DNA from: an uncultured Granulosicoccaceae bacterium
GTDB taxonomy: Bacteria; Pseudomonadota; Gammaproteobacteria; Granulosicoccales; Granulosicoccaceae
Direction of reading: 5' to 3'
DNA length: 64,000 bases
NCBI GenBank assembly: GCA_937920585.1
Contig: CAKZSB010000161.1
Coordinates: forward strand, 1 to 64,000
Position numbers and translations under genes: made by a program. The notes under the pieces were generated by a model. It saw nothing but the letters and a program-made list of their open reading frames with translations, was not told where the DNA came from and made no database searches. Position 1 is the stretch's first letter; each line of letters starts with the position of its first letter. Positions 36,614-51,201 of this stretch are shown here, one piece after another.

Positions 36614-38269
36614 CTACCTTGTCGTTTTATCGAGCGCGGTTATTTCGCTTTGTATTGTACCGATACGACGCACCCACGGGCCGTAGCGTTTGCTGGTTTC
36701 TGGCAGAGCTTGCATGGCCGTTTGTGCGTCGGCACGCGACGCGTAGAGGCCACTGGCAAGTCCATACTCAGCCAAATTCTGTGCGTTCGTTTTATAGTGG
36801 TAGGTGATGATTGGCCGGTCTTCCGGCAAATGGCGGGCAAAATTTTCCAGAAATGCAAGATTCGAGCTCGAGCCAATTTGAATGGTGTAGCTGTCGGTGC
36901 GCTGATTGAGTAACCAGTAGTTGTTGTGTTCGGTCTCGTTGCCGGTGTGATGGGTCGCAGGCGTACTGTCTGTTTGTACCGGGTTGGTTTCTTTTTGCAA
37001 TGCCAGGCTGTCTGCCAGATCAAACAACGAGGATCGTTCAGGTTGCTTTGTCGAGAGCGGCAAAGTGCCGAGCGGTGTCACTGCTGCCACCCGTTGTTGT
37101 GGTGTAGCCGTGGCGAATGTCTCATCGGCCGGTGCGCTGATTGCCAGGCCCTTGTGCAGTAATGCCCGTGCAAATGATGGCACCAGTGGACTGTAGGCCA
37201 GTCGCTCCAGAAATTCGGGCAAAGCACGTTTTTGCTCGCTGTCTATGGTTACCTTCGCCGTCATGCCTGCTCTGAGTGGTGGTGCATCCGCAGGTTTTTC
37301 AACGGCCAGTTTCACCGGTACGCGCTGCACGACCTTGACCCAGTTGCCAGTCGCATTCTGGGCTGGCAGCAGCGAGAATTCGGCGCCGGTTGCGGGTGCG
37401 ATTGTCGATACGGCGGCGGGCCATTCGATATCCGGGTATGCATCGACTTCGATGGTTGCCGATTGCCCGGGGCGCAGATTGGTTAAGCGAGTTTCTTTGA
37501 GATTCGCCTCCACCCACACATCATCGGTGTCGATCAGTGTGAACACAGCGTTACCGGCCTGCACGAATTCACCGGGTTGCAACCGCACATTGCTGACGAT
37601 GCCACTGGCCGGCGCCAGTACTGTGGTTTTATCCAGCAGTGTCCGGGTTTGCTTGTAGCGGGCCTCAGCCTGCAGGTAGGCTGGATGAGCCTCTGAAGGC
37701 TGCCTGGCAGATCCGCCAAGATTAGCCAGTACGCGTCGTGCGCGCTGAGTCAGAACTGCAACGCTTTGCTCTGCGGCTTGCAGGTTGTGGTACGCCTCAT
37801 CGTGTGACTCTGTGACGCCCAGGCCCCTGGCTTTCAGGGCGCTTTGTCGCTCATATTGTCCGGCGAGAAAGCGCACGCGCTCGCGTGCGGCCTCTATTGC
37901 CACGCCTGCCTCGCGGTAGTCGACGCGCATCGATTCGATCTCTGCTTTGGCGACAGCCATCTCGGCACGCGCCTCGGCGACCTGCAGTTCAAGCGGCGCC
38001 GGATCCAGCTTGAAAAGCACGCTGCCAGCGGACACCAGGCTGTTGTCGGTAACGGCCACGTCGACCACGCGGCCGCTGGTGTCTGCGCTGATCGCGATGA
38101 TATTGGCCTTCACATAGGCGTTTTCGCTGACCACATAGCGACCGCCGGCGAAATAGTAGTGCGAGGCTGTGATGATGGCCAGGAAGGGTACGACGATCAG
38201 CAGTACCGCGCGCATTGCCATTCGGCGCAGTCGGGTCAGCACGGGAACGTGAGCAGGTTCATCCGTCAT
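36614..38269 (-). CDS. EmrA-like membrane fusion protein with C-terminal SPOR-like domain
   Basis: 551-residue periplasmic adaptor of a tripartite efflux pump. Membrane segment about 20-40; lipoyl and barrel-sandwich halves about 45-110 and 215-330; a helical hairpin about 95-190. EmrA is normally near 390 residues. After a linker (about 340-450) comes a domain, about 455-545, with SYTIQIGSSSN, YGLASGLY and YGPWVRRI that matches the C-terminal SPOR region of the DamX-like protein in this window. A peptidoglycan-binding extension on an adaptor is unusual. Start overlaps the marR gene, and emrB diverges. Confidence 0.88.
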   Translation of the reverse strand: MTDEPAHVPVLTRLRRMAMRAVLLIVVPFLAIITASHYYFAGGRYVVSENAYVKANIIAISADTSGRVVDVAVTDNSLVSAGSVLFKLDPAPLELQVAEARAEMAVAKAEIESMRVDYREAGVAIEAARERVRFLAGQYERQSALKARGLGVTESHDEAYHNLQAAEQSVAVLTQRARRVLANLGGSARQPSEAHPAYLQAEARYKQTRTLLDKTTVLAPASGIVSNVRLQPGEFVQAGNAVFTLIDTDDVWVEANLKETRLTNLRPGQSATIEVDAYPDIEWPAAVSTIAPATGAEFSLLPAQNATGNWVKVVQRVPVKLAVEKPADAPPLRAGMTAKVTIDSEQKRALPEFLERLAYSPLVPSFARALLHKGLAISAPADETFATATPQQRVAAVTPLGTLPLSTKQPERSSLFDLADSLALQKETNPVQTDSTPATHHTGNETEHNNYWLLNQRTDSYTIQIGSSSNLAFLENFARHLPEDRPIITYHYKTNAQNLAEYGLASGLYASRADAQTAMQALPETSKRYGPWVRRIGTIQSEITALDKTTR

Positions 38270-38711
38270 TGCAGGCTGCCGGCGATGTGAGATTGTCTTT
38301 TATCTGCAGCAATGCATCGACGAGTTGCTGGTGTTCCGGCTCGGTCAGGCCGGCCAGTGCCTGACGGCGGACTTCAGCGGCATGTTGGCGCATCTCTCGA
38401 ATCATGGGCTCGACGTCGACGGTGAGGTAAACGCGGTTGGCGCGCCGATCATTGGGGTCGCACTCGCGTCGAATCCATTTTTTTGCCTCCAGTCTGTCCA
38501 GCAATCGCCCCAGGCTGGGTTTCTCGATTTCCATCAGATCGGCCAGTGTTGTCTGGGTCAGACCGTCCTCTCGATACAAATGGGTGAGTACCCACCATTG
38601 CGAGCGGGTTAGCCCGATGGCCTTAACCCGGCGATCAAAATTGGTTCTTAACAACCGTGCGACATCATGCAGAATGAGGCCGAAGTTGCGATCGAGGCTC
38701 TCTTGTAACAT
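38259..38711 (-). CDS. MarR-family repressor
   Basis: 150-residue winged-helix dimer. Recognition region LTQTTLADLMEIEKPSLGRLLDRLEAKKWIRR (split across about 55-86) and wing DPNDRRANRVYLT. Probably controls the emrA/emrB pair, as EmrR does in E. coli, releasing DNA on binding hydrophobic drugs; ligand not known. Its 3' end overlaps the emrA-like start by 11 bp, so regulator and adaptor are co-transcribed and diverge from emrB. Confidence 0.92.
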   Translation of the reverse strand: MLQESLDRNFGLILHDVARLLRTNFDRRVKAIGLTRSQWWVLTHLYREDGLTQTTLADLMEIEKPSLGRLLDRLEAKKWIRRECDPNDRRANRVYLTVDVEPMIREMRQHAAEVRRQALAGLTEPEHQQLVDALLQIKDNLTSPAACNDG

Positions 38712-38801: not shown

Positions 38802-40313
38802 TTGAGTAGTGATCCGAACAGTCAGACCAGCGCGCCCAACCCCTATTGGGTGCTGTTGACCGTCTCGCTATGCACAATGCTTTATTCGATGACGGTGACG
38901 GTCGTCAACGTGACGCTGCCGCAGTTGCAAGGCTCACTGTCTGCCAGTCCTGACCAGATCGCCTGGGTCGTGACACTGAATGTAGTGGGTACGGCGATTG
39001 TCACGCCGATGACAGGCTGGCTGACCAGCAAGCTTGGACAGCGCTATCTGATGCTGGGCAGTGTCGGTGGTTTTGCGGTCGCCTCTTTTTTGTGTGCGAC
39101 CGCAGAATCACTCGGGCCGATGCTGTTGTATCGCGTCGCTCAGGGTGTTTTTGGTGCGCCGATTGTGCCCGTATCGCAAGCGCTGGTACTGGCGTCATTT
39201 TCGTCGGACAAGCGTGCGATGGCACAGGGTTTTTTCGGCATGGCAGTGGTCGCTGGGATGGGGCTCGCGCCAGTGATTGGCGGCTATGTCGCGGAGCACT
39301 ATAACTGGCGCGCGATCTTTCTGTTGTTGCTGCCCGTCTGTGGCGCAGCAATTCTGATGACCCTGGTGTTCATTCGCCAGGCGGGCAGGGCGGAAGGCCA
39401 CCGGCTGGACTGGACCGGCTTTTTGTCTTTGTCTGTTGGCATCGCCTGCCTGCAACTGTTGCTGGATCGCGGCGAGAGTCTTGGCTGGTTTAGCTCGGGC
39501 GAGGTGTTGTTGTATCTGGCCGGGCTGATTCTCGCCAGTTACCTGTTTGTGGTTCACACTGCGACCTGCGATCAGCCGTTTTTTAATCGCGAACTGCTGC
39601 GCGATCGCAACTTCAGCGTTGGTCTTATGCTGGTGTGTTTCTACGGCATGTTGAATTTTACGCCGATTACGCTGCTGCCTCCGATGCTGCAGAATCAGCT
39701 GGGGTATCCGGATTCACTGGTAGGCTGGTTGCTGGCCATGCGCGGGCTGGGCATGATCGGCGGTTTTTATGTGGCCGGACGAATGGGTCGTGTTGATCCG
39801 CGCATCAGCATGGGTATTGGTTTTGCGATGATCGGCGTCAGTGGTCTGGCGTTGGCGACGGTGCAGCCGGACTATGCCGCAAACTGGGTTGCCTGGGCCG
39901 GGCTGTTGCAGGGCATTGGCAGCGGCATTTTGTGGGTGCCGGTTACCACCGCCGCGTTTTCAACGCTGCCGGACAGATTGCTGCCAGACGGTGCGGCAAT
40001 ATTTCATTTACTGCGTAATGTCGGGCAGAGTGTTTATATCGCGCTGAGCTTTCTGGTCGTGGTGCGCAGCAGCCAGATCAACTACGGCGAGCTGGTACAG
40101 AATCTCAGTCCGTTGAACGATCGACTGACGCTGCCATGGGTAACGGGGTTGTGGGGTATAGATAACGTGGCCGCGTTGCGCGCAGCCAGTAGCGAGAGCT
40201 TCCGGCAAGCACAACTGATTGCCTTTAATAATGCGTTTTTGCTCTATAGCTGGACTTGCTTCGCCGTGATACCGATTGTATTTTTATGGCGCAAGCCTGC
40301 GGCGGCGACATAG
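38802..40313 (+). CDS. DHA2-family multidrug transporter, EmrB-like
   Basis: 503-residue major facilitator with about 14 membrane segments. Motifs: LCTMLYSMTVTVVNVTLPQL in the first helix, GWLTSKLGQRY (motif A) and motif C-like GMGLAPVIGGYVAEHYNWR. It would pump drugs or fatty-acid-like compounds by proton antiport together with the divergent EmrA-like adaptor and an outer-membrane channel not present here. Start is TTG at 38802, with AAGGATGG about 12 bp upstream. In E. coli emrA and emrB are co-directional; here they diverge. Confidence 0.92.
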   Translation: MSSDPNSQTSAPNPYWVLLTVSLCTMLYSMTVTVVNVTLPQLQGSLSASPDQIAWVVTLNVVGTAIVTPMTGWLTSKLGQRYLMLGSVGGFAVASFLCATAESLGPMLLYRVAQGVFGAPIVPVSQALVLASFSSDKRAMAQGFFGMAVVAGMGLAPVIGGYVAEHYNWRAIFLLLLPVCGAAILMTLVFIRQAGRAEGHRLDWTGFLSLSVGIACLQLLLDRGESLGWFSSGEVLLYLAGLILASYLFVVHTATCDQPFFNRELLRDRNFSVGLMLVCFYGMLNFTPITLLPPMLQNQLGYPDSLVGWLLAMRGLGMIGGFYVAGRMGRVDPRISMGIGFAMIGVSGLALATVQPDYAANWVAWAGLLQGIGSGILWVPVTTAAFSTLPDRLLPDGAAIFHLLRNVGQSVYIALSFLVVVRSSQINYGELVQNLSPLNDRLTLPWVTGLWGIDNVAALRAASSESFRQAQLIAFNNAFLLYSWTCFAVIPIVFLWRKPAAAT

Positions 40314-49266: not shown

Positions 49267-51201
49267 TTACTGGCCGTTTTTGATTTCGTCCTGCAATTGC
49301 TTGATCGGGCGAATCCATGGCTTGAACTTGCGTACCTCGGCGGGCATGGCGTCAATCGCGGCCAGTGCCTCGTCGGTGGTGTCGAAAATGCCGTTCAAAA
49401 GACCGTAGACCTGGCGGCCGTTGCTCTTGATTACAAACGGATATACCGCCAGCGGACCGTCAAGTGGCAGTGTTTGAGCAAATTCCATGATATAGCCGCG
49501 TTCGCGAGAGGTCGCCAGTTGCAGCGTGAACTTGGTATTCGGCTGAAACAGCACCCAGCGTTCGTTCTCGACAGCTCGCAGTACACGTGGCTCCTCCGGC
49601 TCTGGCACTGGCTGTGGTTCTGGCTGTGTTACCGGGACCGGAACGCCGTCGTCTGACGTGCCATCGGAGACCACCGGGACGGACGCAGCATCGGTATCGT
49701 CGACTTGCGCGGGAACCGGCACGATGGAAGACTCGGCTGCTGCGCTGGTGCTTGCCGGCGGGGTCACAGGTGCTGTGTCAGCTACTGTGGCTTCCGGTGC
49801 TGCGATGGCGGTTTCGGTGGATGCAGTAGTTGAGTCCGCCAGGGTGCTCGACGCATTCGCGACCACGTCGCCTGTGGTGTTTGTGGTATCGCTTTCCGAT
49901 GCTACTTCGGTGTCTGTTGCGGCAGGGGCTGCGGGCACTGGTTGTGCCTGTGCCTGCAAGTCGGTGTCGGCATCGTTCGACGCTGCAGTCCCGGCATCGC
50001 CTGTTGCGACAGATCCATCGCTCGGTTCTTCGCTTTGCAGCAGCCCCGTCGTTTGCGCGGTACTGCCATCGGCAATCGTGCCGGTGGATGGCGTCTGTTC
50101 AGTGCTGCTTTGCGCCGGGCTGTCGCTGTCCGTCACATCCCGGTGTTCCGGACGCAGCAAATCGTCATTGCCAGCGGCGACTCCCGCAGAGCCTGCGGCG
50201 GGCGTTGCCGTGAGCGCAGGGCTGGATGAGGCTACCGGAGTCAACGCGTTGTTGTCCTCGACTGTGGCCAGGGTGTTATCGGGCGAGGAGCCGCCTGCAC
50301 CGAACATGGATAAGCCCCAGACAATCAGTGCCAGCGCCGCAGCGCCGAGCCCGATCACGGGCCAGCCAAGCGCACCAATCAGGCCGCCTTCGACGCCTGT
50401 CGCCGCTGCGACACCAGTTCCGGTATAAACCTTATTGAGGTAGGTCGCTGCATGATGGTTGATTGCAGCCGGTATGCCGTCGGCGTTTTGGTGAATGCGG
50501 GTAATAGCATTGTCTGTGAATGGGAATTCACCGACGAAGCCCGCCTGATTAAACCGAAATGACAGATACTCCCGGGTGCGATCAGCCGTCAGCGCCGGCA
50601 TTGCCGAGACGCTATAGGGCAGCATTTCAAATTCCTCGCCGATAGCATCGAGCTCGTCCTGAAAGGCGGCGACACCGGTCAGCAGCAAGCGTGCGAGGGG
50701 CTTGCCATCCAGCTGAAGTGAGGGCATCAGCCCGATCAGTTCGGAAATTTCTTCGATCGGCGCCAGATGGGCGTTGTCGATGATCAGGGCGGGTGTGGTT
50801 TGATTGCTGTTCAGTTTGTCGAAGTGCGGTAGCAGGCCTTCGACGTGTTCATCAATCGAATCGGCTTGCTCTCCATCGAACTGCCCGAGCACAGCGGCCA
50901 GGAAACCGCGCGCTTCGAAGTTGGCGTCGCCGCGTGCGATATAGGGCTTGAGGTAGTCTTTGTTGTGGCGGACCAACTGCGATAGCAATACTGACTTGCC
51001 GGAGCCACTTGGGCCCACCAGCAGATGCAGCAACTCGCCGTGTTTTAGCTGTTGTTCAATTTCCGAGCGAATAGACTGGGAATTGGAATCGTTCATGTGA
51101 TCGCGATTGCGATCGTCCTCGAACGGTTGAACGGACAATCCGAGATCCGAAAGCGCTGCATCGGATAGCCGACTGGGAGTCTGGTTGTCGTTGCCTGTCA
51201 T
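49267..51201 (-). CDS. damX: DamX-like AAA/SPOR cell-division protein
   Basis: 644-residue inner-membrane protein. N-terminal ExeA/AAA-type ATPase about 20-265 with Walker A VGPSGSGKS (62-70) and a Walker B-like LIIDNAH. One membrane segment about 285-305. A long Ser/Thr/Ala/Asp-rich linker (about 315-545) of low complexity. C-terminal SPOR domain, 547-644, with FTLQLATS and YGLLNGIF, should bind denuded peptidoglycan at the septum. Position after aroB fits DamX of gammaproteobacteria, though E. coli DamX lacks an intact ATPase. Confidence 0.9.
   Translation of the reverse strand: MTGNDNQTPSRLSDAALSDLGLSVQPFEDDRNRDHMNDSNSQSIRSEIEQQLKHGELLHLLVGPSGSGKSVLLSQLVRHNKDYLKPYIARGDANFEARGFLAAVLGQFDGEQADSIDEHVEGLLPHFDKLNSNQTTPALIIDNAHLAPIEEISELIGLMPSLQLDGKPLARLLLTGVAAFQDELDAIGEEFEMLPYSVSAMPALTADRTREYLSFRFNQAGFVGEFPFTDNAITRIHQNADGIPAAINHHAATYLNKVYTGTGVAAATGVEGGLIGALGWPVIGLGAAALALIVWGLSMFGAGGSSPDNTLATVEDNNALTPVASSSPALTATPAAGSAGVAAGNDDLLRPEHRDVTDSDSPAQSSTEQTPSTGTIADGSTAQTTGLLQSEEPSDGSVATGDAGTAASNDADTDLQAQAQPVPAAPAATDTEVASESDTTNTTGDVVANASSTLADSTTASTETAIAAPEATVADTAPVTPPASTSAAAESSIVPVPAQVDDTDAASVPVVSDGTSDDGVPVPVTQPEPQPVPEPEEPRVLRAVENERWVLFQPNTKFTLQLATSRERGYIMEFAQTLPLDGPLAVYPFVIKSNGRQVYGLLNGIFDTTDEALAAIDAMPAEVRKFKPWIRPIKQLQDEIKNGQ

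Follow-up and report, generated by a model that had tools for sequence, protein, structure and literature searches.

SPOR domains recognize glycan strands that lack stem peptides, a form of peptidoglycan that amidases enrich at the septum, and the known SPOR proteins are all described as acting in division or morphogenesis (PMC6895207). In the SPOR domain of Escherichia coli DamX, residues Q351, S354, and W416 are required for septal targeting, and a basic patch that includes K418 accompanies them (PMC6895207). The E. coli EmrAB-TolC drug pump is, by comparison, a transport machine: its adaptor EmrA is held in the inner membrane by an N-terminal helix and assembles as a hexamer, and a coil and a helix at the C-terminus of EmrA run back along the lipoyl domain and the lower hairpin (PMC13139468). 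Here we describe emrA-SPOR, a gene that joins an EmrA-type periplasmic adaptor to a C-terminal DamX-type SPOR domain, in the genome of an uncultured Granulosicoccaceae bacterium, a gammaproteobacterium of marine type (GenBank assembly GCA_937920585.1). We refer throughout to the first 64,000 nucleotides of contig CAKZSB010000161.1, the whole stretch analyzed, as the window. Each half of the protein belongs to a family already known, and what is new is their union in one chain.

The emrA-SPOR gene occupies positions 36614..38269 of the minus strand as an uninterrupted frame of 551 amino acids plus a stop, assigned from the frame itself, Pfam, NCBIfam, and matches of the sequence to solved structures. 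An earlier note on this DNA had proposed an EmrA-type adaptor fused to a SPOR-like domain, and the match to E. coli EmrA, the Pfam SPOR score, and the DamX fold described below all bear this out. The SPOR domain itself spans residues 448 to 545 (36635..36928, minus strand; WLLNQ..YTIQI....YGLASGLY....PWVRRIG). Pfam SPOR (PF05036) matches residues 460 to 535 with 30.8 bits against a cut-off of 21 (E 3.8e-7), so the profile search that the note had called for does find a SPOR relationship. When the whole protein was compared with solved structures, residues 439 to 543 matched the DamX SPOR structure 2lfv (E 1.6e-8), and a profile built from 19 SPOR domains of the family recovers 2lfv in turn (E 1.6e-17). 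Of five two-sequence AlphaFold2 (AF2) models of the domain, the best reached a predicted local distance difference test score (pLDDT) of 83.7 and a predicted template modeling score (pTM) of 0.77, while the remaining four scored under 50. Foldseek placed 2lfv first for the best model (E 1.1e-5, probability 1.00), with DedD (6ztg) and RlpA (6i09) among the next matches; model and matches together display the ribonucleoprotein (RNP)-like fold of the SPOR family, an antiparallel sheet with two helices. By sequence and modeled fold, the C-terminus of emrA-SPOR is a genuine DamX-type SPOR domain.

The window also carries the ordinary SPOR protein of this genome, a DamX with AAA and SPOR domains (Pfam; 49267..51201, minus strand) that adjoins aroB and aroK, and it served as our comparison copy. 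Its SPOR domain (49282..49569, minus strand), recognized by Pfam (E 2.1e-5), BLASTP, and the family profile, aligns with the C-terminus of emrA-SPOR over 96 gapless residues at 30% identity (BLASTP, E 5e-16), a likeness that is therefore far above chance. Five of the six motif matches that the earlier note had read between the two C-termini are in register (T[IL]Q[IL], FA..LP, YGL..G[LI][YF], A[LM]P, and PW[VI]R.I); the sixth, K[TS]N, lies two residues off and should be dropped. The note's figure of about 100 extra C-terminal residues holds for the SPOR domain, but the whole extension is nearer 180 residues (approximately 373 to 551), with about 75 of linker preceding about 100 of SPOR. Compared with the SPOR domain of E. 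coli DamX (2lfv; Williams 2013, as far as that work is reported in PMC6895207), the window's domain shares the SPOR subtype, the fold, the equivalents of Q351, S354, and W416, and a basic residue at 418. In the alignment these are Q464 (36878..36880), S467 (36869..36871), W532 (36674..36676), and R534 (36668..36670), all on the minus strand, whose counterparts are functionally important in DamX, with R534 standing in for K418 of the basic patch (PMC6895207). The two proteins differ in what carries the domain: DamX is an AAA membrane protein that belongs to the division apparatus, whereas emrA-SPOR is the adaptor of a transporter. The emrA-SPOR protein therefore falls outside the class of division proteins formed by FtsN, DamX, DedD, and RlpA, since its remainder is an efflux adaptor and the genome has its own DamX.

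Residues 19 to 368 match E. coli EmrA (8zar) when the whole protein is compared with solved structures (E 1.4e-42), and Pfam recognizes HlyD_D23 (4.9e-22) and HlyD_3 (1.2e-21), HlyD and CusB families together covering residues 55 to 343. A transmembrane helix predicted at residues ~10 to 41 (38147..38242, minus strand), seen in the AF2 model and corresponding to the helix of EmrA (PMC13139468), would anchor the protein in the inner membrane. The adaptor body follows at residues 45 to 345 (37235..38137, minus strand), with beta-barrel, lipoyl, and alpha-hairpin domains of the HlyD type and, judging from the alignment, apparently no MP domain. The conserved beta-barrel loop of EmrA homologues is present as SLLPAQNATGNW[VI]KVVQR in the alignment with 8zar; residues 293 to 319 (37313..37393, minus strand; ATGAEFSLLPAQNATGNWVKVVQRVPV) correspond to the beta-CL region of E. 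coli EmrA, in which this loop comprises residues 294 to 317 (PMC13139468). A post-barrel segment with two helices predicted by alignment and AF2 model (37154..37234, minus strand) leads to a low-complexity, fast-evolving linker, residues 373 to 447 (36929..37153, minus strand), which is predicted to be disordered. The full-length AF2 model is of low confidence (mean pLDDT 58.7, pTM 0.31, and pLDDT below 50 over residues 373 to 459), and we used it solely for the limits of the helix and the linker. Following the topology of EmrA, we place the SPOR tail on the periplasmic side. E. coli EmrA and this protein thus share the N-terminal membrane helix, the hairpin-lipoyl-barrel order, the loop SLLPAQNATGNW.KVVQR, an EmrB-type major facilitator superfamily (MFS) partner, and an adjoining MarR-type regulator; they differ in that the chain of the E. 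coli protein runs to residue 390 and closes with a helix, whereas here a linker and a SPOR domain are added.

A MarR/SlyA-like gene (38259..38711, minus strand; Pfam and NCBIfam), which overlaps the start of emrA-SPOR by 11 bases, is likely its local regulator. The presumed pump partner is a divergent EmrB-type DHA2 MFS transporter (38802..40313, plus strand), identified by TIGR00711 (289.6 bits against a cut-off of 230.2) and MFS_1 (3e-51). TolC-like channels of the OEP family are encoded elsewhere in the same genome. Directly downstream of emrA-SPOR, on the same strand, lies a cytochrome P450 gene (35370..36593, minus strand); other open reading frames stand behind the fusion in two related genomes, G005 and G012.

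We next consider how far this architecture extends. The order consists of a single family, represented by 48 genomes, and we defined the adaptor clade by E values under 1e-60. A SPOR-like tail is present in all four of the order's genomes that have an adaptor of this clade, namely the window's own (G000, genus g1), G005 and G012 (genus g4), and G003 (genus g3), which places the fusion in four species and three genera of one family. The tail is thus not absent from homologues, a point that the earlier note had raised for checking. The other three fused adaptors are 45 to 49% identical to the window protein, and all four loci share the order of MarR-type gene, EmrA-SPOR, and divergent EmrB. More widely, adaptors at the level of the clade occur in 51 of 369 class genomes and 79 of 398 phylum genomes, in sets that were evenly drawn and from which the best three candidates per genome were scored. 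None of these genomes other than the window's own yielded a SPOR-tailed EmrA, the remaining matches all ending at or before profile position 379 of 549; SPOR-tailed adaptors of other kinds may have escaped, because three candidates were scored per genome. At 53 loci, 52 open reading frames match the adaptor profile with tails of 0 to 34 residues past it, and the sole SPOR match is a second adaptor to which we return below. Among 864 plasmid records with a match, not one spans as much as 80% of the query. The class, phylum, and plasmid searches, as scoped, give no sign that the fusion is widespread in the Gammaproteobacteria or the Pseudomonadota. We found no described HlyD, EmrA, or other efflux adaptor with a SPOR domain in an incomplete set of open-access papers, subscription papers being mostly outside that coverage.

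The unfused relatives indicate how the tail was acquired. Adaptors from the Betaproteobacteria (L034, L035, and L037) and from Desertibaculum (L036) are 46 to 50% identical to the adaptor part, and L034, the only one taken in full, likewise has MarR-type and DHA2 MFS neighbors. All four differ from emrA-SPOR in ending in the post-barrel segment, at about residue 372 of the window protein, without SPOR. Because these relatives end there, we conclude that linker and SPOR were appended after the native C-terminus.

What would a drug pump gain from such a tail? On the strength of the sequence and of analogy with described systems, we favor, as somewhat probable, a scenario in which an EmrAB-type adaptor carrying SPOR on a flexible linker tethers its pump to denuded glycan and is thereby enriched at the septum and poles. 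By analogy with E. coli EmrA, an adaptor hexamer would sit on one EmrB and dock to a TolC-like channel, so that up to six SPOR domains per pump could lie in the periplasm at the level of the wall. These tails would bind glycan strands stripped of their peptides by amidases, strands that arise at the septum and persist at the poles, and multivalent binding might then hold pumps where the envelope is remodeled, at division sites and new poles, with a putative benefit to efflux. Anchoring of this kind is suggested by the conservation of the ligand residues and by the precedent of the secretin PilQ, whose AMIN domains bind peptidoglycan and are needed if the type IVa pilus machine is to be positioned at midcell and at the poles (PMC5285504). 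The same source names peptidoglycan poor in stem peptides as a target of AMIN, SPOR, and LysM domains (PMC5285504). Both systems are trans-envelope machines with a domain for septal peptidoglycan; they differ in that PilQ uses the AMIN family within a type IVa pilus machine, and in that recruitment was tested for PilQ and is proposed here for emrA-SPOR.

Several observations weigh against this scenario or against parts of it. The EmrA/EmrK family TIGR00998 is the best-scoring NCBIfam family for the adaptor, yet it scores 243.9 bits against a cut-off of 390.8, and we therefore call the protein EmrA-like rather than EmrA proper. DamX R380, a further residue of the basic patch, is not retained, the position being nonbasic. 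Aligned to DamX, three of the fusions (the window, G005, and G012) retain the glutamine, serine, and tryptophan and have an arginine at 418, but the G003 fusion (L007:1054-2604, minus strand, on contig G003:C13) has E, R, V, and Y at positions 351, 354, 416, and 418, and its SPOR domain sits on a very long branch. A single clade of EmrA SPOR domains is, moreover, weakly supported (55/79). By its sequence the G003 domain is degenerate at the ligand face, and the loss of four ligand positions together with the long branch suggests that it has taken on another job or is decaying.

The retained ligand residues would also be in keeping with SPOR tails that held the pump to peptidoglycan all around the cell, stabilizing the trans-envelope assembly or fixing it beneath the wall without septal or polar enrichment. 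The long linker would let the domain reach the wall anywhere, and the avidity of a hexamer could exploit rare denuded strands of the side wall; we nonetheless regard such general anchoring as unlikely, as denuded glycan is concentrated at the septum and poles and the known SPOR proteins function in division or morphogenesis (PMC6895207). The domain might instead contact a cell wall synthase, in the way that DamX and DedD contact class A penicillin-binding proteins, or sense wall damage, and so gate or stabilize the pump. The G003 protein, which retains fold-type sequence without the ligand residues, would suit this explanation, but the glycan ligand residues persist in three of four fusions and the gene neighborhood points to no partner, and we consider it improbable.

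The G003 domain could also be read as a sign that the tail is a neutral passenger, a duplicated SPOR joined by recombination and tolerated without a role in efflux, and the many SPOR copies of the clade would have been available to recombine. Against this stand the retention of SPOR in each of the four family members with the adaptor and the pattern of substitution between G005 and G012, the one pair compared by the Nei-Gojobori method. Nonsynonymous and synonymous divergence (dN and dS) are 0.09 and 1.38 in the adaptor body (83% identity), 0.72 and 1.47 in the linker (32% identity), and 0.18 and 1.59 in the SPOR part (72% identity), giving dN/dS of ~0.49 in the linker, ~0.11 in SPOR, and 0.07 to 0.11 across the domains flanking the linker, ratios that are rough because dS approaches saturation and the method is a simple one. 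Purifying selection acts on the SPOR part and not on the linker; since dN is far below dS in SPOR, unlike in the linker, the domain appears to be maintained as such, and we hold the passenger reading to be distinctly improbable. An artifact of assembly, frameshift, or annotation that joined two genes has a negligible probability: the genome is a draft of 489 contigs, but the frame is single and open and lies away from the ends of its contig of 79,875 bases. The recurrence of the fusion in three other assemblies rules out a fused annotation.

The septal tethering that we favor also draws on a second, unrelated adaptor. L123:847-2709 (minus strand; G008:C307, from a sister genus) is a HlyD-family protein that ends in SPOR. 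Its orthologue in the window's genome, L185:1480-2748 (plus strand; G000:C232), is 55% identical, lies in the same gene order, and ends at residue 422 without SPOR, so that the SPOR domain of L123 is a second, independent addition, and this independent gain counts for the tethering scenario. The gene set around both is one that we take to be VTC-like/DUF4956-like. In the SPOR tree, the L123 domain is nested in a group of small membrane proteins (support 99/94).

These adaptors belong to a clade rich in SPOR domains. The family-specific profile finds six DamX-type SPOR domains in the window's genome and three to nine matches in each of the 14 genomes of genus g4, against one in most genomes of other genera. 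Most of the additional copies form the C-terminus of small proteins that have a linker and a single predicted membrane helix, and many of these proteins carry an N-terminal YRRYR..N.Y..P-like motif. Such small single-helix SPOR proteins (L106 and L107 in the window's genome, L110 to L163 in sister genera) are lineage-specific and occur several to a genome. A second single-helix family (L108:2952-3998, minus strand, L128, L151, L164, and L165) has an N-terminal LYR..P...SP..LD motif and a weak, divergent SPOR-like C-terminus (22 to 52 bits). L111:1883-5884 (plus strand; G005:C160) encodes 1334 residues with three near-identical C-terminal SPOR copies and otherwise weak Pfam matches, and from its sequence it looks like an outer-membrane, usher-like protein; its relative L149 (G016:C213) has one SPOR copy, cut by the contig end. 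The EmrA SPOR domains group with the small-protein SPORs rather than with DamX (support 55/79 and 56/88, both weak), and a direct derivation of the tail from the window DamX is accordingly not favored.

We advance more tentatively, as a possibility suggested by these sequences, that DamX-type SPOR has become in this clade a portable wall-address tag, attached through linkers to several envelope machines, which might gather export at division sites or poles under one shared address. The machines in question would be the EmrA-type pump, the second adaptor with its presumably VTC-like/DUF4956-like operon, and the three-copy outer-membrane-like protein; the small single-helix membrane proteins would bear the tag as well.

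In the papers covered, no account of a tripartite drug pump bearing this sort of wall-binding domain came to light, the known SPOR proteins being described as tied to division or morphogenesis (PMC6895207). With a pump that has its own putative glycan-binding tail, one could ask directly whether trans-envelope pumps are positioned relative to the wall, and by what means, and the tail would represent a natural module for directing a periplasmic complex to the septum.
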